Assembly (NCBI RefSeq): GCF_000280055.1
Contig: NZ_ALAB01000024.1
Span: forward strand, 124,001 to 188,000
Source of the DNA: Alishewanella aestuarii B11
GTDB taxonomy: Bacteria; Pseudomonadota; Gammaproteobacteria; Enterobacterales; Alteromonadaceae
Direction of reading: 5' to 3'
DNA length: 64,000 nucleotides
In this document: positions 42,402 to 64,000 of the stretch, piece by piece
Layout: the number at the start of each line of letters is the position of its first letter
How positions within the stretch are numbered: position 1 is the first letter of the stretch
The notes under the pieces: generated by a model
Database searches by the model: none
What the model was told of the DNA's origin: nothing
The model's input: only the letters and a program-made list of their open reading frames with translations
Program-made: the position numbers and the translations under genes

Positions 42402-44126
42402 ATGGATGGAATTAACCTGGCCATACTGGCCGGCGCCTTATTGTTCTTTATCAGTATTATCGCCACGCTGATTTCGGCGCGGCTCGGTGCACCTATGCTA
42501 TTGGTGTTCCTGCTGATTGGAATGGTCGCCGGTGAGGATGGAATAGGGGGTATCCAGTTCGCTAACCCTCAGATTGCCTTTTTGATCGGCTCCATCGCGC
42601 TGGTGATTATTCTGTTCGACGGCGGTATGCGGACGCACCCGGAGCGATTTCGGGTTGCCTTGGCGCCGGCGTCGATGTTAGCAACGCTCGGAGTAGTGAT
42701 TACCTGTGGCACTGTCGGGGTGGCAGCTGCCTATTTACTTGGCTTGGGTTGGATTGAAGGTTTGTTGCTTGGCGCGATCCTAAGCTCTACTGATGCTGCG
42801 GCCGTATTTTCGATTTTCCAGTCACAGCGGCTAAAAATTAAAGAGCGGGTGGCGTCGACATTGGAGATCGAATCCGGTAGTAACGATCCGATGGCGGTTA
42901 TTCTGACCCTGACGCTGGTTTCGCTGCTGGCTCAGGACAAGGCGCTGGACGCTTTTGTGTTGGTGACCTTTTTACAGCAAGCCGTGGTCGGTGGTGCTAT
43001 GGGATATGGTGCGGGCAGGGTGTTCGTATTCTTGTGCCGTAAATTGCCGCTAAGCTTTGCTTTTTTTCCACTACTGGCGGTGGCCAGCAGTATTATGATT
43101 TACGCACTGACGAACTCCTTTGGTGGCAGCGGTTTTCTGGCAGTTTACCTGATGGGGTATATTGTTGGTAACGCCCGTTTACCTCAGATCATCCATATTC
43201 TGCGAATGCACGACGGGTTAGCCTGGATCAGCCAAATCAGTATGTTTTTAATGTTAGGTCTGCTGGTTTCACCCGGTAACCTGATGGACCATCTGTGGCA
43301 GGCATTATTGCTGGCGGGCGTACTGATTTTTATTGCCAGACCACTCGCTGTATTTATCTGTTTGATCCCGTTCAAATTTCCGATGCGGGATCAGCTCTTT
43401 ATCAGCTGGGTTGGCTTAAGGGGCGCGGTGCCTATTATTCTGGCGCTGTTTCCATGGCTGGCCGGTGTGCCAAATGAGCATCTGTATTTTGATGTCGCCT
43501 TTGTAGTAGTTATTGTCTCGCTGGTGCTACAGGGCTGGAGTTTGATCCCGGTAGCCCGTTGGTTAAAACTGGAAGTTCCGGCAGAGCTTGAGCCTGACCA
43601 GGCCATGCCTCTGGATGCCGTTCCGTCAAAAGATGTGATGGAAGTACTGGCCTATAAAGTGACATCACGTTCACCGGTGCTAACCATGCGCTGGCAGCAA
43701 CTCGCAGTGCAGCTGCCGGTACAGTATCTGGGGCTGATCCGGGACGGCGATTGGTTACAGGCCAGTGAAGATCCTGCCATCGCCGCCGGTGATACCATTA
43801 TGGTGTTGTCGCATTTAAAACATGTGAAAAAGCTAAGTGAAATGCTGGCTAGTGATGCTGAAAAGAGCGTTCTGGATAACAGTAACTTCTTCGGTGATTT
43901 CTTACTCAATGGCGCTGTTAGCCTTGGCGATTTAGATGCGTTCTATACGATTAATATGGCTGAATTGAATCGTGAACAGACGCTGTCTGCCTATATTAGC
44001 GAACGTTTCCATCGCCGGGTGGTAATCGGTGATCAGGTGAAACTGGATCAGTTACTTTTAACGGTTCGTGAAATGAATGAGCAAGGTGACATTACCCAGG
44101 TTGGTATTAAACCGCTGCAAGATTGA
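42402..44126 (+). CDS. nhaP2: K+/H+ antiporter, NhaP2/CvrA type
   Basis: A 574-residue CPA1-type antiporter with about 12 hydrophobic helices in the first 390 residues (motifs GAILSSTDAAAVFSIF and ESGSNDPMAVILT). A cytoplasmic region follows: a TrkA-C-like/CorC-type domain from about residue 415 onward. In Vibrio NhaP2 exchanges K+ (and Na+) for H+ and protects against low pH and high K+. Probably monocistronic. Confidence 0.92.
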   Translation: MDGINLAILAGALLFFISIIATLISARLGAPMLLVFLLIGMVAGEDGIGGIQFANPQIAFLIGSIALVIILFDGGMRTHPERFRVALAPASMLATLGVVITCGTVGVAAAYLLGLGWIEGLLLGAILSSTDAAAVFSIFQSQRLKIKERVASTLEIESGSNDPMAVILTLTLVSLLAQDKALDAFVLVTFLQQAVVGGAMGYGAGRVFVFLCRKLPLSFAFFPLLAVASSIMIYALTNSFGGSGFLAVYLMGYIVGNARLPQIIHILRMHDGLAWISQISMFLMLGLLVSPGNLMDHLWQALLLAGVLIFIARPLAVFICLIPFKFPMRDQLFISWVGLRGAVPIILALFPWLAGVPNEHLYFDVAFVVVIVSLVLQGWSLIPVARWLKLEVPAELEPDQAMPLDAVPSKDVMEVLAYKVTSRSPVLTMRWQQLAVQLPVQYLGLIRDGDWLQASEDPAIAAGDTIMVLSHLKHVKKLSEMLASDAEKSVLDNSNFFGDFLLNGAVSLGDLDAFYTINMAELNREQTLSAYISERFHRRVVIGDQVKLDQLLLTVREMNEQGDITQVGIKPLQD

Positions 44127-45006: not shown

Positions 45007-45321
45007 TCAACATCCTGTCATAGAGGGTTACATATTTTATTACTTAACCTTAAGCGAAAATGATGCCGGAGAAAAGACTAATAGTTATTGCGGTTAGTCT
45101 GCTAAAGTGATTAAGCTCATGGGATGAGGTACTAGCGCCCAAAGGGTTGGTGGGACCAGTTATGTTAGTTTTTAAAGCTGTTTTTGCCTAAGTTGCAATA
45201 GCCCATAATGTATATTATGTTAAATGTATTAAATGCTGGAAATGTCTAAGCAACTGTATTTGATAGATTTAGTGTTATAATCCTAACTTCGGATTTATAG
45301 CGAGTTTTGAGAACAGCTTAT
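45007..45321. other. AT-rich intergenic region, no gene recognised
   Basis: A 315-bp gap, clearly lower in G+C than its flanks. A perfect TATAAT lies at 45276-45281, 41 bp before the SGNH hydrolase start, and a CATAAT/ATTATG inverted repeat at 45204-45219. Nothing supports a coding sequence or a known RNA. Confidence 0.5.
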
Positions 45322-51852: not shown

Positions 51853-52830
51853 TTATATTGCCGGACAATTCGCCGCCACCCGATAGCCCTGTTGCTCGGC
51901 TTCAGATATGGTTTGGAAAATCACCCGGTTTGCTGGCGCCATACTTTGATAATTGGGGCAATCCGGCCGGTGATAGATTTTGGAGTTGCGGTTAGCATGG
52001 ATTGGACCTGTCACTTTGCTGCTGCTTTCCACTTTGGCAACCTGCGTGTCGTTGCGGTTGTCCCAACCGGCAGCGGTTAAGCCAATGCCGCTGGTAGCAA
52101 AGCCTAGCTGCCAGCTTTTTTCACCGGTTACAAAAGGATTATTACGCCCGGTCTGCATAGCTGTGCGCTGGTGGATCTGCCGCTCTTTCTCTGAAACCGG
52201 ATCCTGACTGTGCCAAGCCAGAAACATTTGCTGATCCTGGCGGCTTAATTTCAGGTTGTAGCGATCGGCCATATAAAACGCCACCCGCGCAATATCGCCG
52301 CGGATATCTGCCTTGGGCTGAACCTTACGCTGTTTGGTATCAATCCGGATATCACAGCGGCCAAACTGACCGCTGAATTCTTGCCCAACCATACCAAAGG
52401 GCAGATCGGCCCGCAGACCATTGATCTGTCCTACGGCATAGGTCAGATTAAACAGATCAGCTTCAATCAGGTTAAATAACGGATCCTGTTGCTGGCAGTT
52501 CTTACGGCCGCCGTTTTGCCAGCATTTTAATTGCTTCCCCACCCAGGAGATCGGAATAATATGCTCCACTTCTGAACGAGCCGCTCTGGCCAGCGTTGCC
52601 TCACTAGGGGTACCCCGGGGCGCATAGACTTCGAAGCCACAGCTTTGATGATCAACCCGACCACCACTGCGTCCAACCCAACTGATCGCACAATCGCAAT
52701 AAAAGGTACGTTCATGGCCCTGATAAATTTGCTTGAGGGTAACTTTGGCCTGTTCAAAATTGCCTGGATTGGCAAATACCGGACTGCTAATGCTAAGCAG
52801 CAGAATAACGAGCAAAACGTATCTGATCAC
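51853..52830 (-). CDS. endA: secreted endonuclease I with C-terminal Ada-like domain
   Basis: A 325-residue secreted nuclease. A signal peptide (MIRYVLLVILLLSISSPVFA) precedes the endonuclease I domain: YCDC, the SEVEHIIPISWVG His motif near residue 85, and FNLIEADLFNLTYAVGQINGLRAD. After about residue 230 a linker leads to a C-terminal module (GPIHANRNSKIYHRPDCPNY ... VAANCPAI) with Cys and His residues, resembling the metal-binding Ada fold found at the ends of some nucleases. E. coli EndA (235 residues) lacks this tail. Extracellular DNA degradation for nutrition is the likely role. Confidence 0.88.
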   Translation of the reverse strand: MIRYVLLVILLLSISSPVFANPGNFEQAKVTLKQIYQGHERTFYCDCAISWVGRSGGRVDHQSCGFEVYAPRGTPSEATLARAARSEVEHIIPISWVGKQLKCWQNGGRKNCQQQDPLFNLIEADLFNLTYAVGQINGLRADLPFGMVGQEFSGQFGRCDIRIDTKQRKVQPKADIRGDIARVAFYMADRYNLKLSRQDQQMFLAWHSQDPVSEKERQIHQRTAMQTGRNNPFVTGEKSWQLGFATSGIGLTAAGWDNRNDTQVAKVESSSKVTGPIHANRNSKIYHRPDCPNYQSMAPANRVIFQTISEAEQQGYRVAANCPAI

Positions 52831-53065
52831 AACAACTACCGCGCCGGCCGTGGACGCTCTGATGACTGCAAGTCAAAACCGGCCTGTTCTGACTTTGATC
52901 CTGTTGCGAACCCAATTTGTCCGCCAACCCTGATCTTAACAGTAAACACCTTGCAGATTAAAGCTTGCGATCTGCTTAACCTGACGCCAGACCAAGGTCA
53001 GATTGTGCTTTTTTATTAAAACAGGTATAACTTGAATACGCTCAAATAATATTAGTCCGGGTCTG

Positions 53066-56050
53066 ATGTCAAAGTTGTTGCAACCCTTGCTACTTCTACT
53101 GGCGATATGCTGTTTCAGTGCTGTTGCAGACATAGACTATGTGTTTAGCCCACCTACCGATAAGCTGACCGCCCGACAGTCTTCGGTTTATCACATCACT
53201 CAGGACCAGCATGGCTTTATGTGGCTGGCAACGGACAGCGACGGACTGTTACGGTTTGATGGCAGCGAAAGCGTTAATTGGCTAAGTGTCGCAGAAAGTG
53301 GTTTACGGCGGCAAAATGTCGATAAATTTGTATTAGAGAATAATGGCGCTATCTGGATGGCCAGTTGGGGTCATGGTTTAACCTATCTCGCTGCTGCAAA
53401 CGATGTTCAGTACAATTTCCGGGCCGATAGTGGCGATCCTGACGCGCTGGCATCTGATCGGGTACAAACCTTATTTCTGGATAGCAAGCAACGTTTATGG
53501 ATTGGTACTGTCGCGGGGGTTAACTATATTGATTTAGCTAACCCCAGGGAGATCAAGCGTTATGCGGCGCCGGAGCTCGAACATCCATTGCATAAGAACC
53601 GGATCTGGTGGATCACTGAATCGGCTGAAGGTCTTTGGTTTGCCACCGCTGACGGCATAGTGCTGCTTAATACAGAGCAGCAGGTAAAACGCTATCTGTT
53701 GCCGCAACCGGAAAAAAATATCCTTGAACGAGCGCGTGAAGTACGCGCTATTCAGCATTTTAGCTCGGGTATCTGGGCCAGTTCGGCCACGGGGGTTTAT
53801 CAGTATCATTCCGGCTGTGACTGTTTTGCCCGTCTGGAAATGCCGGCGCAAGTCGCCTCTCCCCGAGTAAATGTACTTTATCAAAGTCCGGATAATTATT
53901 TATGGGTCGGCAGCACCGAAGGATTATTTTTATATGATACCGAGGCTAAGCAGTGGATTAAAAATCGTCAGGGCTTTAATTATCTGCCGGATGTCGATGT
54001 CCGAACCCTCTATGAAAACGCCGACAGCCAACTCTGGGTAGGTAGCCGGGATCAGGGACTCTTTATCGGTAATCCGCAACAACGGGCTTTTCAACCCTTG
54101 AGTAGTCAACTACCGAGCCCCCTGCAACAGGCGGCAAGTCGTTTGATTAGTGCCCTGTATCAGGACCAGCAACGTAATATCTGGATAGCCGCACACGGTG
54201 CCTTAATCTGGCTGGAGCATGCCAGCAACCAGTGGCATCAGGTTCTGTATCGCCAACAACATAATATTCGCAAAATTTATCAATTTGCTTCGCAGCCTGA
54301 CGGCTCGCTCTGGCTGGCGACAGACAGTGGCTTATATCAAATGCAGGATGGCCGGCTTAGACCAGAGCTGACGCCTTTTGAGCTGGCAGGTATTCCTCCG
54401 GGCGCTATTACTGCCTTTCATATCTCTACTGACGGCGATTTTTATCTGGGGGTTTGGCAGCGGGGTCTACTTCGCTGGCAACCGCAAACGCAGCAGGCGA
54501 CTATTAGCCTGACTAACCTGGCGACAAACAGCGGCGACCAGATTTATCAGATCGTCACTGATCAAAGCGGCAATCTATATGCAGCAACCCGTTACTCCGG
54601 ATTGTATAAAAGACCTGTCGGGCAAAGCTGGCACCAGGTAGAAACCGGTGTCGCCAATCTGGTTGAAGGATTTAATTGTGTATTACCTGTCGCTGAAACA
54701 ATAGTTTGGCTTTGCTCCGAATATGGGCTGTGGCGCCTTGATCTACAAAGCGGCAGCAGTTCACAATTTTTAACCGAGCAAGGACTGCCAAGTGTCTTTA
54801 TTACCGGCGCCTTCCTCGATCAGCAACAACGGTTATGGGCTTTGACTAATCATGGTCCTGCCCGCTTTAATGAGCACAGCCAACGTTTTACCAGTTATAG
54901 TCTGAATGATGGCCTACCCGATCTGACGATGCAGCGTAATGCCCATCTATTGTTACCCGACGGCAGCTTTTTGCTGGGTACCGCTATGGGGGTCGCCAAT
55001 AGCAAATTTGATATAGAGGCCGAGTATATGCCTGTGCCCAGAGTCGCGCTGAGCCAGGTTGAAATCGATGGCAGAGATCAGACCCGGCATTATCCTGTTA
55101 ATCAGACGCAAATTGCGTTACCGGCTAACTTTCGGGAATTGGTGATCGGTGTCTCAGTTCTGGACTACCGTGAACCAGACAAAAACACTATCCGATACCG
55201 TCTGCTAGGGTTTTCATCGAACTGGAGTAGCGCAACCCGTAACCGCGAATTACGTTATTTAGGCTTAGCTCCCGGCAATTACCTGTTAGAAGTGATTGGC
55301 CAGAATAGTCAGGGTATCCAATCCGCAGAGCCATTGCGAATCCAAATTCAGGTCGCTGCACCCTGGTGGTATTCACCTTACTTATGGATTGTCTCTGCTG
55401 TCGTTTTCCTAACTACCTTGTTATTAAGTGTCTATCTGCGAGAGCTTAATTTAAGAAGACGCAACGCACGTCTGGCCGGCCTGGTTAGTGCCAGAACGCA
55501 GGAGCTTGAATTGTTAGCACAACAACTGCAAAACAAAGCTGATCATGATGAGCTAACGGGGTTATTAAATCGCGCCGGTTTTACGGAACACTTTCAACGT
55601 TTACGTTTACAGTTACAACGCAGTCAGCAATCTCTTAGCCTGGTGTTAATTGATCTGGATTATTTCAAGAGCATTAATGACCAGTTTGGTCACGCCGCAG
55701 GTGATGCCGCCCTGCAGCATTTCGCTGCTAAGCTAAGTACAAGGGCGAGAGGCAGCGATCTGACTGGGCGCTGGGGAGGCGAAGAATTTATTCTGGCTCT
55801 GGCGGACTGTACAGCAAGTGATGCCAAAGTATTTTGTGAGGCCTTACTACGAGAGATGCAGCAGGAGCCCTGCTCATACCAGGGCGCCATATTAAAGCTG
55901 AGCGCGACTTTCGGCATAGCGCAGCTACCCGTCAGTTGCAGTTCGCTCGAACAGTGGGTAAAACTTGCCGACGACGCCCTCTATCAGGGCAAGCATCGTG
56001 GTCGCGCTCAGGCCGTTATCGCAAAGCCGACTCAGCTGCTCACCAATTGA
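53066..56050 (+). CDS. diguanylate cyclase with periplasmic propeller sensor
   Basis: A 994-residue sensor. A signal peptide (MSKLLQPLLLLLAICCFSAVA) precedes about 14 two-component-regulator propeller repeats (for example GFMWLATDSDGLLRFD, LWIGTVAGVNYID). A Y_Y_Y domain (IRYRLLGFSSNWS, LRYLGLAPGNYLLEV) follows, then one membrane helix (about residues 770-790) and a C-terminal GGDEF domain. The active site is G904-G-E-E-F908, and the product-inhibition I-site Arg895-x-x-Asp898 is intact. It should make c-di-GMP in response to a periplasmic ligand, possibly a sugar. It stands alone, with no kinase or response regulator nearby. Confidence 0.92.
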   Translation: MSKLLQPLLLLLAICCFSAVADIDYVFSPPTDKLTARQSSVYHITQDQHGFMWLATDSDGLLRFDGSESVNWLSVAESGLRRQNVDKFVLENNGAIWMASWGHGLTYLAAANDVQYNFRADSGDPDALASDRVQTLFLDSKQRLWIGTVAGVNYIDLANPREIKRYAAPELEHPLHKNRIWWITESAEGLWFATADGIVLLNTEQQVKRYLLPQPEKNILERAREVRAIQHFSSGIWASSATGVYQYHSGCDCFARLEMPAQVASPRVNVLYQSPDNYLWVGSTEGLFLYDTEAKQWIKNRQGFNYLPDVDVRTLYENADSQLWVGSRDQGLFIGNPQQRAFQPLSSQLPSPLQQAASRLISALYQDQQRNIWIAAHGALIWLEHASNQWHQVLYRQQHNIRKIYQFASQPDGSLWLATDSGLYQMQDGRLRPELTPFELAGIPPGAITAFHISTDGDFYLGVWQRGLLRWQPQTQQATISLTNLATNSGDQIYQIVTDQSGNLYAATRYSGLYKRPVGQSWHQVETGVANLVEGFNCVLPVAETIVWLCSEYGLWRLDLQSGSSSQFLTEQGLPSVFITGAFLDQQQRLWALTNHGPARFNEHSQRFTSYSLNDGLPDLTMQRNAHLLLPDGSFLLGTAMGVANSKFDIEAEYMPVPRVALSQVEIDGRDQTRHYPVNQTQIALPANFRELVIGVSVLDYREPDKNTIRYRLLGFSSNWSSATRNRELRYLGLAPGNYLLEVIGQNSQGIQSAEPLRIQIQVAAPWWYSPYLWIVSAVVFLTTLLLSVYLRELNLRRRNARLAGLVSARTQELELLAQQLQNKADHDELTGLLNRAGFTEHFQRLRLQLQRSQQSLSLVLIDLDYFKSINDQFGHAAGDAALQHFAAKLSTRARGSDLTGRWGGEEFILALADCTASDAKVFCEALLREMQQEPCSYQGAILKLSATFGIAQLPVSCSSLEQWVKLADDALYQGKHRGRAQAVIAKPTQLLTN

Positions 56051-56469
56051 TGCGCGACCTGAGTCCCCGTTAGCAGGTTATCATGCAGCGGGCAGCGGGC
56101 GCATACTTCATCAAGAAAGCGTTGCTTCTGCTCCACCGACAGATCGGCGTCAATCTCAGCCAGGATCCGGATCTGTTGAAAGCCTGCCCGCTCGATCGTC
56201 GCCTTGCCCATCAGCGCATCTGGGTCATAATCCCCCTCGACGGTGATCCGCATCCCGTGTAGTGCGATTTTCTGTTGAAAGGCGGCAATCCGGCCAATAG
56301 TGGCAATACAGCCGCCAACGGCAAAAAGTAACATCTGCAAGGGCGTCGGCCCCAACCCAGTCCCTTTTGCTGTAACAGGCTGATCAATCATCAGCTGGTG
56401 CTCACCGATCCGGGCCGCTACGGCAAAGCCATCCTGCATGACACTTTCAACACTAACAGTTTTAAGCAT
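56032..56469 (-). CDS. OsmC-family peroxidase-like protein
   Basis: A 145-residue protein with the OsmC layout: TPLQMLLFAVGGCIATIG with Cys54, and a second redox Cys in CARCPLHDNL. OsmC/Ohr proteins reduce organic peroxides. The start at 56469 has AAAGGGG 9 bases upstream. Its 3' end overlaps the converging diguanylate cyclase gene by 19 bp. Confidence 0.88.
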   Translation of the reverse strand: MLKTVSVESVMQDGFAVAARIGEHQLMIDQPVTAKGTGLGPTPLQMLLFAVGGCIATIGRIAAFQQKIALHGMRITVEGDYDPDALMGKATIERAGFQQIRILAEIDADLSVEQKQRFLDEVCARCPLHDNLLTGTQVAHQLVSS

Positions 56470-56713
56470 ATTAAACCCCTTTAATTTATTCTGCGCTAAT
56501 ATAAAGCCAATTCTCAAGTAAAATGCTGTTCCAGATCAAAACTATGGCTGGTCTGCAATTTGGCTGCATTGCCCCTTGGAGTCGGATTTAACATTGAAAG
56601 TTAGATGATTTGAGTATAAATCCGGCGATCAGTAGTGGATGTTCCGTTAAAACTGGTATTCCGTTGCGGCTTTTATTAGTGTAGCGCCTTTTCTTCAAGG
56701 GCCGGAAATCGAT

Positions 56714-56920
56714 ATGAGCACTGTCACATTATTTGACCAGCTGCAAGATGCAGTAAAAGAACTTATCAGTAAGAATATCAAATTACAACAACAGTTAAAT
56801 AACTTACAAGAACAGCACGAGCTGTTACAACTGGAGATGATGGAGAAAGACGACAGTCAGGCAAAGCTCGCTCAGCAAATGACGCAATTGTTAACTGAGC
56901 TTACTCAACAACCTCAATGA
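56714..56920 (+). CDS. small coiled-coil protein upstream of a ZapA-like gene
   Basis: A 68-residue protein that is almost entirely a coiled coil (LQDAVKELISKNIKLQQQLNNLQEQHELLQLEMMEKD). It resembles the TIGR02449/ZapB-like short coiled coils. It overlaps the next gene by an ATGA, so it is translationally coupled to it. Role inferred to be in cell division from the neighbour. Confidence 0.7.
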   Translation: MSTVTLFDQLQDAVKELISKNIKLQQQLNNLQEQHELLQLEMMEKDDSQAKLAQQMTQLLTELTQQPQ

Positions 56921-57174
56921 GTGTTCGACCTTATAGTATTACCATCGCCGGGCGACACTACCGTTTTAAGGCTGAGTCGGATTTAGAGTTAGTGTTGCAG
57001 CAGGTTGCCAGCGAATTAGAACAGCGGATAACCTTACAGGCTACACAGCAACCGCTGGCCAGTCGTGACCAATTACTTATGCTGACAGCGGTAAATGTAT
57101 TGGCTGAAATGAAACAACAACAAGCCACGTTGGCCAATTTACTCAAAGCAATCCAAACAAGCACCCAGGGCTAA
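56917..57174 (+). CDS. zapA: ZapA-like cell-division protein
   Basis: An 85-residue protein with the ZapA globular start VRPYSITIAGRHYRFKAE and a C-terminal helix (LLMLTAVNVLAEMKQQQATLANLLKAIQ). ZapA bundles FtsZ filaments. The usual ZapA neighbours (6S RNA, a formyl-THF ligase) are absent here, so this may be a second copy; the standard locus cannot be seen in this window. Confidence 0.78.
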   Translation: MSVRPYSITIAGRHYRFKAESDLELVLQQVASELEQRITLQATQQPLASRDQLLMLTAVNVLAEMKQQQATLANLLKAIQTSTQG

Positions 57175-57182
57175 GCCCTGGG
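57164..57182. terminator. hairpin spanning the zapA stop codon
   Basis: CCCAGGGC and GCCCTGGG pair with the TAA stop as the loop. There is no adjacent T-run, so it is a weak terminator at best between converging zapA and maeA. Confidence 0.4.
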
Positions 57183-57195
57183 AGTAAAATTACTA

Positions 57196-58893
57196 TTAAC
57201 TGCTGACGCGGCGGTAATTACGGTACTCCGGTCGCCAGAAATTATCTTCAATTTTTTGTTGCAGCGCATTGTCGTCCAGCTCCAGCGCCAGGCCCTGCTG
57301 CATCGCGACCTTAGCGACAGCAAAGGCAATCCTTTTACTTAACGCAGCGAGCTCAGTAAAAGGCGGTAACAAGCCCCCTGTTCCGGTGTTAGCCAGAGGC
57401 GAATTCGCTGCCAGGGTTTCACTGGCAGCACGCAACATCTCGTCTGAAATCAGTCTGGCGTTTGCGGCTATTACCCCCAAACCGATACCCGGGAAAATAT
57501 AGCTGTTGTTACACTGGGTGATCAGAAATTCACGCCCCTGATAATGAACGGGCTTAAAGGGGCTACCGGTCGCAACAATCACGTCTCCCTCTGTCCACTC
57601 AATCACCTGCTCTGGTGTTGCCTCTACCTGCCGTGACGGATTACTTAATGGAAAAATAATCGGCAAGGCACAGCCCTTTTTCATCGCGCGGATAATCTGC
57701 TCAGTAAATAATCCAGCCTGACCAGATACCCCTATTAACACGGTAGGCTGAGCACAATGCATTACGTCTAACAGGCTTGGATAGTCACCGCTAAAGCTCC
57801 AGCTGGCAATTTGCGCACTGCTTTGCACTAGAGCTTGCTGGAAGTCACGTAAATCCGGCATGGTATCGGTAAGCAGTCCGAAGCGGTCAACCATATACAC
57901 CTGACTACGCGCCTGAGCTTCAGCTAAACCTTCTGCCACCATCTGGCTAATAATCGCCTCGGCGATACCGCAGCCTGCAGAGCCAGCGCCGACGAATACC
58001 ACTTTTTGCTGATGTAATGGCACACCTTTGCTACGGCAAGCCGCAAGCAAGGTCCCTACCGTTACTGCAGCAGTACCCTGAATATCATCATTAAAACAGC
58101 GCACGCTGTCACGATAGCGCTGCAGAATCGGCATCGCATTGGGCTGGGCAAAATCTTCGAACTGAATAATGGCTTCCGGCCAACGCCGTTTTACCGCCTG
58201 AATAAAGAGGTCAATAAACTCATTATATTCCTCCTGCCCAACCCGCGGTTGCCGTAGGCCCATATACATAGGATCGTTAAGTAATTTTTCGTTGTTAGTG
58301 CCCACGTCCAGCATCACGGGTAAGGTATAGGCCGGGCTGATTCCGCCACAAGCGGTATAAAGCGACAACTTACCGATAGAAATGCCCATACCGCCTATGC
58401 CCTGATCACCCAGGCCCAGCACCCGTTCACCATCTGTTACCACTATGACTTTGACTTTGCTTTTCGTTGCATTACGCAGCACGTCATCCAGATTATAGCG
58501 GTCTTCATAGCTAATAAAGAGCCCACGGGCACTGCGATAAATATCGGAGAACTGTTCACAGGCGTCACCGACCGTCGGCGTATAGATAATGGGCAACATT
58601 TCTTCCAAATGTTGCTGCACCAACCGATAAAACAGCGTTTCGTTATTATCCTGAATAGCGCGCAAATAAATATGCTTATTAATCGGATCTTCAAAGCTCC
58701 GATATTGTTGATAACAGCGGCTCACCTGCTCTTCGATGGTTTCATAACGGGGCGGTAGTAAACCTGTCAGGTTAAAGGCGGCACGCTCCTGCGCTGAGAA
58801 AGCACTTCCTTTGTTCAATAGTGGCGTTTCAAGTAAGGCCGAACCTGCATAGCCAGTATACAGTGGTCTTTTCGACAAATTGCTTGTAGACAT
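57196..58893 (-). CDS. maeA: NAD-dependent malic enzyme
   Basis: A 565-residue enzyme, the same length as E. coli MaeA, decarboxylating malate to pyruvate. Motifs are [16 protein letters not shown], the [18 protein letters not shown] segment, [13 protein letters not shown]-like [11 protein letters not shown], and the NAD loop [11 protein letters not shown]. The start at 58893 is preferred over an ATG-less extension to 58929. Confidence 0.96.
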
Positions 58894-58947
58894 GATGTGA
58901 TCCGAATAACCAAAAGAAAGCCGGCACAACCGGCTATAAAGACGACA

Positions 58948-59793
58948 TTAATAGATAGTACTTATCCGGGGGTTAAGAACGGATAATACAAATAACCCTT
59001 CAGTATTGCAGAAGTCGATGGCTTTAAGTAAATCTGCTTGAGTTAACTGCAGTGTTTCTAATAAGAAAGGATCAACCAGCGTTTTGATGCTATACAATTC
59101 AGGATGCTGATTGGCCAGTGCCAATCTCACTGCTAAATAAACAATGAGATCCTCCGGACTTCTTGCCTCGTATTGACTGTTGTGCTGCAATGCAACGGGA
59201 TCTGCAATCGCATCAGGCAGCTGCCAAAGATGCAACAACTCTGCACCACAACTTGCGTAAGTAAAACCTAATTTGCGTTGTTGCAACTGCCAGGGCTTTA
59301 TCTCAGAACTGTATTGCTGACACTCAGTTGCTATCTCAGCATTTTGCTGAGCCACTACCAACTCGCCAATGTTATGTAATAAGCCAGATACATAGGTGCG
59401 ATCGGCGGATTTAAGGCTGATATGGGTAGCAAGGTATTTTGCAATTAAGGCAGCATTGACACTTTGCTCCCAAAAGCGCTCTAAATCGATAGCGGTGCAA
59501 TTTATTTGGCTACAGGCGGAGCTGATACCAATACTCAGGATCAAATTATAAACCTGAGTTTTTCCAAGAACTAGCAGAGCCTTACTGACAGAATCTACCT
59601 GATAGGGTAAACGATAAATTGCTGAATTAGCCAGCTTTAATAACTTTGATGTCAACACCGGGTCTAATAAGATAACTTCAGCAATATCATCCAAACTCGC
59701 CGTATCGGATTCCATCAACTCCCGCACCCGGAAATAACTGTCAGGTAAAGAAAATAGCTCTACTACATTCTGCGCATATTGTAACGCATTCAT
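58948..59793 (-). CDS. HDOD-domain signalling protein
   Basis: A 281-residue protein with an HDOD domain (LMESDTASLDDIAEVILLDPVLTSKLLKLANSAIYRLP) over most of its length; the HD metal-binding residues are largely missing, as is usual for HDOD proteins. These act in unknown ways in signalling and c-di-GMP-linked pathways. The start at 59793 has GGAG about 9 bases upstream. Confidence 0.85.
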   Translation of the reverse strand: MNALQYAQNVVELFSLPDSYFRVRELMESDTASLDDIAEVILLDPVLTSKLLKLANSAIYRLPYQVDSVSKALLVLGKTQVYNLILSIGISSACSQINCTAIDLERFWEQSVNAALIAKYLATHISLKSADRTYVSGLLHNIGELVVAQQNAEIATECQQYSSEIKPWQLQQRKLGFTYASCGAELLHLWQLPDAIADPVALQHNSQYEARSPEDLIVYLAVRLALANQHPELYSIKTLVDPFLLETLQLTQADLLKAIDFCNTEGLFVLSVLNPRISTIY

Positions 59794-59969
59794 CTTAGCT
59801 TCTCCGGTTGTCACAACCTACCGACTGAGTAAAACAGCGCCTGATGTAAAATGACCACGCTGCTACGAACACCTTTTTACTAAGTGTCGCTGTTGTGATG
59901 GATTTTACAAGGTTTTCCGGAAAAATCTTAGTAGTTTTTTCGCCAGCCGCACTGGACAGACCCCGTTAT

Positions 59970-60000
59970 AAAAAACGCAGCCACCAGAGACTGCGTTTTT
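59970..60000 (-). terminator. terminator between the nhaD pseudogene and the HDOD gene
   Basis: AAACGCAG and CTGCGTTT enclose a 10-base loop, with A- and T-runs on the two sides, so it can work in either direction. It probably ends the nhaD transcript on the minus strand. Confidence 0.8.
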
Positions 60001-60026
60001 CGGATCAAGCCAGCGACTGAATAGCG

Positions 60027-60979
60027 TCACCCGTATACGTCAAACAAGCTGGCGTTTAGCCACAGATGTGCGAAAATCGAGGCGATGTAACCCAGCGCAA
60101 TTACCGGAGCCCATTTCAAATGGCCAGCAAAGGTGTACATGCCTCTGGCCTGGCCCATTAATGCCACCCCGGCAGCAGAGCCAACCGACAGCAGGCTTCC
60201 GCCAACGCCTGCGGTAAGTGTAATCAGCAGCCACTGGCCATGTGACATATCTGGCTGCATCGTCAACACCGCAAACATCACCGGAATATTATCAATTACG
60301 GCGGAGATCACCCCTAAGGCAACGTTGGCATTAGTTGGGCCCCATTGGCTATATAGCAGGTCGGACATCACGGCCAGATAGCCCAGAAAGCCCAGGCCGC
60401 CAACACACATCACTACACCATAGAAAAACAGTAAGGTATCCCATTCAGCGCGTTGCACCTTACTGAATACATCAAAGGGCACCACACCACCTAAGCGCCG
60501 TAAACGTTCCATATCCCCCGCCCGCTCTGCCATAGCGCGTTTACGGGCCAGCGAACCTGGTAACGTCATACGCAGGAAATAGCCAAAGAACTGCAAATAG
60601 CCCAGGCCCATCATCATACCCAGTACCGGTGGCAGATGCAGGAAGGTATGACAGGCAACAGCTGTGGCAATAGTAAATCGGCGAACTCGAGCAAGTTATG
60701 TCTGAAAGCATCTTCGGCCACGTTTGGCATGCCATTTTGCACATAGACCCAACCAATCAGGATCCAAATCAGACCTGCTGCAACCAGCACCGGTTTTGAT
60801 TTGCGCATATGCAATTTTTCTTCGCCCATCACCAGCGTATAAGCCAGCACAAAAATGGCGATACAAATAAAACCGATAGTTGAATACGTCAGGGAGAGCT
60901 AACCAGCTGCCGCTGCCAAGGCGGCGGGGCTGGCCAGCAACAGCGCGGCACAGCAGGACAAAACACTTAACGTTCGCAT
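60027..60979 (-). pseudogene. nhaD: nhaD Na+/H+ antiporter pseudogene (amber stop plus internal deletion)
   Basis: Read on the minus strand from the ATG at 60979, the frame encodes a signal-like MRTLSVLSCCAALLLASPAALA, then a TAG at codon 27, most simply a GAG (Glu) changed to TAG. Translation resumed past it gives NhaD sequence (STIGFICIAIFVLAYTLVMG) up to HNLLEFADLLL near 60673. There the frame changes, and a second frame continues as the C-terminal NhaD region (HTFLHLPPVLGMMMGLGYLQ to the stop at 60027). The conserved middle of the transporter is missing: the remaining 953 bp would code for about 317 residues where NhaD proteins have roughly 480-490, so about 450-550 bp are lost. CAATAGT at 60668-60674 sits at the junction and could be the microhomology that mediated the deletion. 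Two independent lesions make function very unlikely, unless they are assembly errors. Confidence 0.85.
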
Positions 60980-61025
60980 GATTAAACCTGTTACTTTTTT
61001 GCACAAATTTAGTTGAGGGTAAGTT

Positions 61026-61070
61026 GCCCGTAGGCTGGGCGGCCGGATGGTAACACATCCGGGCGCTAAG
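61026..61070 (-). promoter_or_regulatory. structured leader of the nhaD pseudogene, candidate cation riboswitch
   Basis: On the minus strand, 47-91 bp before the nhaD ATG, two adjacent hairpins are visible: CCGGATG/CATCCGG (61056-61062 and 61043-61049, loop TGTTAC) and GCCC/GGGC (61037-61040 and 61026-61029). Tandem compact hairpins directly before a Na+/H+ antiporter gene recall the Li+/Na+-responsive nhaA-type riboswitch motifs. I cannot confirm the class from memory of its consensus. Confidence 0.45.
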
Positions 61071-61144
61071 AATGTCAGATGAATGGCAAAAATACCACGA
61101 TAAAATGCAGAATTAGACCAAAGTGGTACAGAGTTGCTTAAAAA

Positions 61145-61172
61145 GAAAACAGGGAGTCAAGGCTCCCTGTTT
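61145..61172 (-). terminator. dps terminator
   Basis: AAACAGGGAG and CTCCCTGTTT (minus strand) enclose a 6-base loop and are followed by TCTTTTT, 31 bp after the dps stop. Confidence 0.88.
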
Positions 61173-61202
61173 TATCTGGATAGGATAACGTTAATATTGT
61201 GC

Positions 61203-61670
61203 TTAAGCGATTAGACTACGCAGCATCCAGGCATTTTTCTCGTGCACAGTCATGCGCTGAGTTAACAGATCCAGGGTTACCTCATCTGAGGCACCATCGG
61301 CGACCGGCACTATAGAGCGAGCCGTTTTGGCAATGGCTTCCTGACCTTTTACCAGATCTTTAATCATCTCTTCTGCGGCTGGAATACCATCCGCTTCTTT
61401 CAGATTGGTCAGCTTGGCGTACTCTTTATAAGAGCCTGGTGCAAATTCGCCCAGCGCACGGATACGCTCGGCGATTTCATCAACGGCCAACGCCAGCTCA
61501 TTGTACTGGGTTTCGAATAGGGTGTGCAGCGTCTGAAACATCGGGCCGGTCACGTTCCAGTGGTAATTATGGGTTTTCAGGTACAACGTATAGGTATCCG
61601 CCAACAATACAGACAAACCGTGGGCAATGGCTTTACGTTGCTCTTCATCAATACCGATATTAATCTTCAT
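61203..61670 (-). CDS. dps: Dps-family ferritin-like DNA/iron-protection protein
   Basis: A 155-residue Dps protein. The ferroxidase residues lie in [39 protein letters not shown] (His-His-Asp-Glu pattern, about residues 33-65). It forms a dodecamer that oxidises and stores iron with peroxide. GGGAG lies 9 bases before the ATG. The promoter region contains ATAG repeats that only partly resemble an OxyR site. Confidence 0.94.
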
Positions 61671-61784
61671 TCGACACTCCCGTTATTTGTTCAGGTATAA
61701 AAAACAATAGCTAAAAAATAGCATAGCTACCTGAATTTCTGAATTAAGTTTTATTTACGTTTATTGATCTGGGGCCTGAAAATA

Positions 61785-61816
61785 AAAAAAACAACCCCTA
61801 AGTCTGGCTTAGGGGT
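61785..61816 (-). terminator. ybiT terminator
   Basis: On the minus strand ACAACCCCTAAG and CTTAGGGGTTGT pair around a 5-base loop, followed by a long T-run. Confidence 0.9.
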
Positions 61817-61847
61817 TGTCTGGTAACAGGAAGTCAGCTAATTGATA

Positions 61848-63446
61848 TTAGGCTTGCAAGGCCAGTTGCCTTGCCAGGTATTCGTCATAGCTACCGACGA
61901 AATCACGCACTTCCTGATCAGTGATTTCAATAATCCGGCTGGCCAGCGAAGACACAAATTCGCGGTCATGGCTGACAAATAGTAAAGTGCCCTTGTAATT
62001 TTCCAATGCCAGGTTCAGGGATTCAATCGATTCCATATCCAGGTGGTTGGTCGGTTCATCCATAATCAGAATATTTGGCCGCTGTAACATCAGCTTACCG
62101 AATAACATCCGGCCCTGCTCACCACCCGATAACACCTTCACGGATTTTTTAATCTCATCCTGAGAGAATAATAAGCGGCCTAAAATGCCACGGATTGCCT
62201 GCTCATCATCAGATGGCTGTTTCCACTGGCTCATCCAGTCAAATAAGGTCATATCTTCAGCAAAATCATGCGCATGATCCTGCGCATAGTAGCCAATATT
62301 CACGTTTTCTGACCATTTTACGGTGCCGCTTTCTGGTGTTAGATCGCCAACCAGGCATTTAAGTAAGGTTGATTTACCAATACCGTTGGTACCGAGGATT
62401 GCCACTTTTTCACCCACCTCAACCGTCAGCTTCAGGTTTTTAAACAGCTTGTGTTCAGTAAAGCCTTTGGTTAGCCCTTCGACTTCTAATGCCAGACGAT
62501 ACAGGCCTTTTTGCTGCTCAAAGCGGATAAAGGGGTTAACCCGGCTGGACGCTTTTACTTCCTCTAGCTTAATCTTATCAATCTGTTTAGCGCGGCTGGT
62601 GGCCTGACGGGCCTTAGAGGCATTGGCTGAGAAACGGCTAACGAAAGTCTGCAACTCAGCGATCTGCGCTTTTTTCTTGGCATTATCGGCCAATAAACGC
62701 TCCCGCGCCTGTGTCGCCGCTGTCATATACTCATCGTAGTTACCCGGGTAAACCCGCAACTCACCAAAGTCCAGATCAGCCATATGGGTACAGACACTGT
62801 TTAAAAAGTGCCGGTCGTGCGAAATAATCACCATGGTCGAGTTACGCTCGGCCAATACGTTTTCCAGCCAGCGAATAGTATTGATGTCCAGGTTGTTGGT
62901 CGGTTCGTCCAGCAACATAATATCCGGATCAGCAAACAGCACCTGCGCCAGCAATACCCGCAGTTTAAAACCCGGCGCCACCGCAGACATTAAGCCATAG
63001 TGTTGTTCAATTGGAATACCTACGCCCAAAAGCAGTTCACCGGCGCGAGATTCGGCGGAATAGCCATCCATCTCACCAAAAGCCACCTCCAGATCGGCGA
63101 CGCGCATACCGTCTTCTTCTGACATCTCCGGATCCGCATAGATCCGATCCCGCTCGGCTTTTACCGCCCACAGTTCAGCGTGGCCCATAATCACGGTATC
63201 AATCACTGAGTACTGTTCAAAGGCGAACTGATCCTGATGCAGTTTGGCCACACGGTAATTCGGCTCAACAAAGACATTACCCGCAGTCGGCTCCATTTCA
63301 CCGCTCAGAATTTTCATAAAGGTTGACTTACCGCAGCCATTGGCGCCAATTAAGCCATAACGATTACCGTCACCAAACTTAATGGAGATATTTTCAAACA
63401 GCGGCTTAGCGCCAAACTGCATGGTTACATTATTGGTAGAAATCAC
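61848..63446 (-). CDS. ybiT: ABC-F ATPase YbiT
   Basis: A 532-residue soluble protein with two ABC ATPase domains and no membrane domain (E. coli YbiT 530). Walker A motifs GANGCGKST (near residue 35) and GTNGIGKST (near 350), signature LSGGEQGRM, and two [18 protein letters not shown] Walker B sites are present. A charged linker lies between them ([23 protein letters not shown]). ABC-F proteins act on the ribosome; YbiT helps relieve stalled translation. Confidence 0.97.
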
Positions 63447-63535
63447 TGCGGGAACCTATTGTTGCTGCCGGAAAAAAGGGGCGTATCATACGCTGTTATG
63501 CGGAAAAACTCAAAGTTAGTGCGCCAGCAAAACAC

Positions 63536-63557
63536 AACGGGCCAGAAAAGGCCCGTT
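63536..63557 (-). terminator. eda terminator
   Basis: AACGGGCC and GGCCCGTT enclose a 6-base loop. The following minus-strand sequence (GTGTTTTGC) has only four T, so termination is moderately supported. Confidence 0.55.
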
Positions 63558-63577
63558 GCTGGTTAAACTGTATTACA

Positions 63578-64000
63578 TTAGAGCGCTTCAGCGACTGCCT
63601 TGGCGGTAAGCTCAGTGATCTTTGCCCAGTCCTTAGCGGCTACCGCGCTGTCAGGTACAATCCAGGAACCGCCAACACAACTGACATTTGGCAGGGCCAG
63701 ATACTCACGAAAGTTCTGCTCGTTAATGCCACCTGTTGGGCAAAACCGGATATCAGCAAAGGGACCATAAATCGATTTTAACGTTTTTACGCCACCGGCG
63801 GCTTCCGCCGGAAAGAATTTAAAATGGGTATAACCCAAACCTGTGCCTTCCATCAGCTCAGAGATACTGGCGATACCGGGGATCAGCGGAATGCTGGCCT
63901 CTTTGCCGGCTTGCAGTAGCTCACGGGTTAAGCCTGGACTAATTGCAAACTTGGCGCCGGCGGCTGCGACTTGTGCCAGTTGCTCTGGGTTAGTCACAGT
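63578..64000 (-). CDS. eda: KDPG/KHG aldolase, 5' end beyond the window
   Basis: The last 141 residues of 2-keto-3-deoxy-6-phosphogluconate aldolase (E. coli Eda 213), the cleavage enzyme of the Entner-Doudoroff pathway. The Schiff-base Lys is in the THFKFFPAE motif, followed by [16 protein letters not shown]. The frame stays open at the right edge; the GTG/ATG seen near 63997 is internal, so about 70 N-terminal residues lie outside. Confidence 0.95.

Follow-up and report, generated by a model that had tools for sequence, protein, structure and literature searches.

Probable recent inactivation of the last NhaD-type antiporter gene in Alishewanella aestuarii B11

Two lesions in nhaD1 of strain B11

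We found that nhaD1 of Alishewanella aestuarii B11 is very probably a recently inactivated pseudogene of nhaD, and the last NhaD-type antiporter gene of this genome (3,588,054 bases in 43 contigs, a draft assembly). NhaD proteins form a Na+(Li+)/H+ antiporter family (TC 2.A.62, IT superfamily; Pfam CitMHS, PF03600). The gene lies on the minus strand of the window, that is, the whole stretch of 64,000 nt of contig NZ_ALAB01000024.1 that was analysed, and its lesions were mapped against the intact 481-codon (1446-nt) nhaD1 of Alishewanella jeotgali KCTC 22429 (NZ_AHTH01000002.1). Chance does not explain the match, since the A. jeotgali gene is a near-identical orthologue in the corresponding position. 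The 5' remnant (60678..60979) keeps codons 1-100 plus the first two bases of codon 101, and the frame from 60979 reads 26 residues before an in-frame amber TAG at position 27 (60899..60901), where the intact orthologue has a glutamate codon. At the join (60677..60678), 493 bp of the orthologue are gone (164 codons and one base), starting at the last base of codon 101 and running through codon 265; because 493 cannot be divided by three, the join puts the 3' part out of frame. This 3' remnant (60027..60677) comprises codons 266-481 and the stop, and its protein is 100% identical to that of A. jeotgali. The account of bases closes exactly, with 302 kept before the join (60979-60678), 493 deleted and 651 kept after it (60677-60027), together 1446, and in blastn alignment to the A. 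jeotgali locus from 51854 to 64000 the deletion is the sole gap.

A sequence-only reading of this DNA had proposed a decaying nhaD with an amber codon at position 27, a frame change at about 60670, a missing central membrane region and flanks that are still NhaD, and had suggested sizing the deletion against intact NhaD of a close relative; all of this was borne out, the size being exactly 493 bp. It had further called the two lesions independent. That there are two is clear, and their independence is likely, because one is a substitution and the other a 493-bp deletion some 220 bases away, which takes two changes. Three of the seven nhaD1 differences from A. jeotgali, the stop included, fall within 17 bases (60885-60901) and possibly represent a single clustered event.

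When the full-length A. jeotgali NhaD was used as query, the B11 genome gave two matches, residues 1-109 (92%) and 265-481 (100%), both at this locus; no further match, to the whole protein or to the missing central residues 101-265, turned up anywhere in the assembly. A profile search gave seven matches to PF03600 in B11, one of them the nhaD1 remnant, and the remaining PF03600 genes had no match to the NhaD query at E 0.001. The 3' remnant scores 48.7 bits against PF03600 (cut-off 31.9), and the 5' remnant alone has no Pfam match. A functional NhaD is a full-length membrane protein with its central region, and here residues 101-265 are absent. The nonsense substitution would end translation just past the likely signal sequence, and the deletion, by removing residues 101-265 and shifting the frame, would leave no NhaD transporter that could be made. 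The locus combines disabling lesions, relative to an intact orthologue in the same place, with orthologues that are intact and constrained.

As for the origin of the deletion, the 7-mer CAATAGT (60668..60674, plus strand) had been suggested to occur at both ends of the intact gene and to have produced the join by slipped-repeat deletion, which calls for a direct repeat at both borders. This proved wrong. Three bases off the join, CAATAGT is native sequence of the 3' part: read on the coding strand as ACTATTG, it occurs once in the intact 1446-nt A. jeotgali gene, at nt 799, where the kept 3' part has just begun, and the 5' border of the deleted segment has no copy; the two borders overlap by 1 bp. 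The single copy and the 1-bp overlap rule out slippage through this repeat and suggest an illegitimate, nearly homology-free joining of the ends. Blastn identities of 99.7% on the left and 96.8% on the right had also raised the suspicion of a recombination end point here, which was discarded after single-base mapping, in which the low-divergence stretch continues through the join to about 62360. It is very improbable that the broken gene is an assembly or sequencing artefact and that the true genome carries an intact nhaD1. The assembly is indeed a draft in 43 contigs, but borders sharing 1 bp only offer no repeat for an assembler to collapse, the join lies well within a 259-kb contig, and the gene also carries a stop that arose by a separate substitution. 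Moreover, the second copy, nhaD2, is missing from its locus too, and an independent genome, A. agri BL06 (G004), has an almost identical junction there.

Age of the inactivation

With only 7 differences from the intact A. jeotgali gene in 952 shared bases, the inactivation appears recent, in agreement with the sequence-only reading. The differences are the stop, S32Y, A48T and four synonymous changes; position 48 is alanine in 4/4 relatives compared, and position 32 is variable among them. A lost gene should gather an excess of non-synonymous changes, and none was seen: the non-synonymous share was 3/7 across the gene, the stop included (p 0.07, towards constraint, against a neutral expectation of 75%), and the difference rate of the gene did not depart significantly from that of its flanks (7/952 vs 10/3003, p 0.15). 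By these two measures no sequence drift since the loss was seen in nhaD1. Most simply, the loss is very young, and almost all of the differences either existed before it or are changes on the A. jeotgali side.

The three differences in the 3' half are all synonymous (0/3 non-synonymous, one-sided p 0.016, towards constraint, for a neutral share of 75%). This could hint at a retained function, although differences older than the loss, or acquired on the A. jeotgali side, fit it equally well. A 3' half kept as a small functional membrane protein of 196-222 aa would have the identity to the A. jeotgali segment and the lack of non-synonymous change in its favour, and an ATG frame of 196 aa does lie inside the 3' remnant (60027-60617, minus strand). 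Yet such a protein would be without residues 1-265, constraint cannot be demonstrated from three differences, the ATG at 60617 has, by eye, no clear ribosome site in front of it, and a C-terminal-only form was present at the corresponding locus in none of 29 relatives (G018 left out); we consider this the least probable of the readings weighed here. Recent pseudogenisation remains our reading of the gene. A short form of nhaD kept by relatives, which would contradict it, was not seen, as 29 of the 30 other genomes of the genus set carry full-length NhaD and B11 has the broken gene only.

The gene lies in a low-divergence stretch common to A. jeotgali (58406..62360), where, the deletion apart, 17 of 3955 bases differ; its limits were set after inspecting the list of differences, denser patches lie on either side, and base 60677 is counted with the join. 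Elsewhere on the aligned contig the divergence between the two genomes ranges from 0 to 15% per 2-kb bin, so the pair is a mosaic with a recently shared tract. From 19029 to 64000 of the window, and rightward to 135228, the divergence mosaic is strong and points to recombination between the two species. At 45209-45225, A. jeotgali has about 7.8 kb of extra DNA and the two alignments share 17 bp, the pattern that a mobile-element target duplication would leave.

Two NhaD loci in the genus

The genus set of 31 genomes includes records named Alishewanella, Rheinheimera and Arsukibacterium. The HDOD, Ferritin and CitMHS assignments are from Pfam, and the names dps, maeA, leuS, uspA and SulP and the labels duf and abm are our own presumptive assignments from sequence. 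In B11, nhaD1 lies between an upstream dps-like gene (61203..61670, minus strand; Ferritin, open frame of 155 aa) and a downstream HDOD-domain gene (58948..59814, minus strand; open frame of 288 aa). Among the 31 genomes with this HDOD gene, nhaD1 adjoins it in four: B11 (broken), A. jeotgali (G016), Rheinheimera sp. UJ63 (G019) and A. longhuensis (G023). In 25 of the 31, dps directly adjoins the HDOD gene with no nhaD, and in A. agri neither dps nor nhaD was found in the 1.5-kb flank; the comparison of this locus covered 29 relatives, G018 left out. Because of this distribution nhaD1 is probably an insertion in one clade. In a FastTree tree the three intact nhaD1 sequences group with that of G059, a genome of another family (support 0.986), which is compatible with gain by transfer.

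The intact nhaD1 orthologues (G016, G023 and G019; 3 pairs) have pN of 0.06-0.10 and pS of 0.74-0.81. Synonymous sites are saturated, so dN/dS is finite for one of the three pairs, at 0.03, and these values indicate strong purifying selection. An alignment of 33 NhaD proteins has 246 invariant columns, 27 in residues 1-100, 88 in 101-265 and 131 in 266-481; it was built from stop-to-stop frames, one of them from another family (G059), without a broken copy of G020 and without most second copies. From these counts the deleted part is strongly conserved, and not more so than the 3' part.

The second copy belongs to a cluster that in A. jeotgali reads leuS / duf - SulP - uspA - nhaD2 - abm. The same order is found in G019 and G020, the latter with two nhaD, and in G023 without SulP. 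In B11 the flanks and uspA are present at this locus, and nhaD2 and SulP are absent; A. agri has kept SulP and has no nhaD2. We had considered a private loss of nhaD2 in the B11 lineage, and replaced it by an older absence, shared or exchanged, in view of A. agri: over about 130 aligned bases the abm-uspA junctions of the two genomes differ, by eye count, at 3, against 88.5% identity for the surrounding 2.3-kb block. Such a near-identical junction implies that the arrangement without nhaD2 is shared by descent or exchange. The absence of nhaD2 probably reflects loss and not original absence, given the copies at this locus in A. jeotgali, G019, G020 and G023, and SulP seems to have been lost separately. 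Of the 31 genomes, all but B11 and G014 have a close SulP (79% or more).

Some further features of these clusters are worth recording. The orphan uspA of B11 (C26, 8943-9797) is open over 284 aa and lacks the SulP and NhaD genes that adjoin it in relatives. The SulP at the leuS locus of A. agri (G004:C26, 7579-9060) has a protein 98-99% identical to A. jeotgali SulP, and a second A. agri SulP (C15) is 82% identical to it, so that the leuS-locus copy was possibly exchanged recently. G020 carries another independent nhaD pseudogene (G020:C1:2924856-2926237), in which an early stop is combined with a frame shift; it stands in tandem beside an intact copy. G011 has no NhaD, its one match standing at E 6.2e-6 and 20% identity. 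NhaD is thus absent or broken repeatedly in the genus, at the leuS locus of B11 and A. agri, in the tandem copy of G020 and in G011. We found no publication on an NhaD-SulP or NhaD-BicA gene cluster by title among the matches listed, and in the paper on H. elongata NhaD the searched words on gene neighbours and habitat do not occur.

Remaining antiporters, salt and comparison with known systems

Other antiporter families persist in B11. PF03553 (NhaC family) has five matches in four frames (five in A. jeotgali), MnhG of Mrp (PF03334) has three in each genome, and PF00999 (CPA) has five (four in A. jeotgali), among them a Na_H_Exchanger match in the window (42450..43562, plus strand; 166450-167562 of the contig) in an open frame of 574 codons. 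Na+/H+ exchange by each of these is putative, from family membership. NhaA was found in 1/31 genomes (G019) and NhaB above the cut-off in 0/31, so their absence in B11 is normal.

The sequence-only reading had suggested that the loss reflects adaptation to lower salt or alkalinity. We find no support for this, since the NhaC-, Mrp- and CPA-family genes remain and the published NaCl ranges run the opposite way: in the partial text of PMC10373932 (Table 1), A. aestuarii B11, from a tidal flat, is given 0-5% NaCl vs 1-2% for A. jeotgali, which with its narrower range carries two intact nhaD genes. For B11 that table lists no pH range. An adaptive loss, with NhaD selected against owing to lower salt or lower alkalinity, could draw on the disappearance of both NhaD genes and their SulP neighbour from B11, and on a freshwater cable bacterium that, in the part of the report available, lost all NhaA copies (PMC10030654). 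It could also draw on Alishewanella sp. BS5-314 (ANI 95.99% to A. aestuarii), which has low salt tolerance and whose paper, in the portion available, mentions mrp and nhaC and not NhaD (PMC10373932). The same strain, however, grows at pH 10-12 according to that portion, which argues against a less alkaliphilic lineage near A. aestuarii. A strain assigned to A. aestuarii, HH-ZS, grows at pH 7-11 (PMC5201056). Overall we regard an adaptive loss as improbable.

How dispensable NhaD may be differs between the systems described. Excerpts of a review report that in V. cholerae single deletions of nhaA, nhaB or nhaD left growth at high Na+ unaffected (PMC9408914). In Halomonas sp. Y2, excerpts of PMC5942162 report that loss of its nhaD1 lowered growth at high Na+ little, and that deletion of its nhaD2 lowered it, most at pH 10; by analogy, the latter cost would count against easy dispensability. 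In B11, nhaD2 was probably absent earlier, with NhaD already a variable part of the antiporter set, and the loss of nhaD1 may have been tolerable for this reason and because NhaC-, Mrp- and CPA-family genes remain. Relaxed selection on a transporter that gene content suggests to be redundant would be the simplest account. What the sequences show directly are the lesions, the intact orthologues, the junctions and the presence of the other antiporter families; that the gene is non-functional, in which order the losses came, and that drift or relaxed selection lay behind them and not adaptation, we infer from these. A stepwise dismantling of a SulP-UspA-NhaD module, with Na+ and pH balance passed to Mrp, NhaC and CPA and the orphan UspA possibly in a second role, is a speculative and rather unlikely reading.

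No published account of this nhaD loss was found by title among the matches listed for Alishewanella antiporters and nhaD pseudogenes. The case is a clean and recent one in which a transporter family commonly linked to salt tolerance was lost, beside a close relative that keeps two intact copies; beyond being a clean example, it is ordinary recent pseudogenisation, part of routine genome decay.

Compared with the NhaD family as a whole, both B11 remnants align to full-length A. jeotgali NhaD and the 3' part passes the PF03600 cut-off, but a copy without residues 101-265, with an amber at 27 and a shifted frame, cannot be a working member. The broken copy of G020 resembles B11 nhaD1 in joining an early in-frame stop to a frame shift, and differs from it in its lesions, its locus and its intact neighbouring copy. 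The nearest of the genomes compared at this locus is A. jeotgali KCTC 22429, which shares with B11 the order dps-nhaD1-HDOD and, apart from those 7 differences in 952 bases, the retained sequence of the gene; unlike B11, it has nhaD1 intact at 481 codons and has kept nhaD2 and SulP at the leuS locus.
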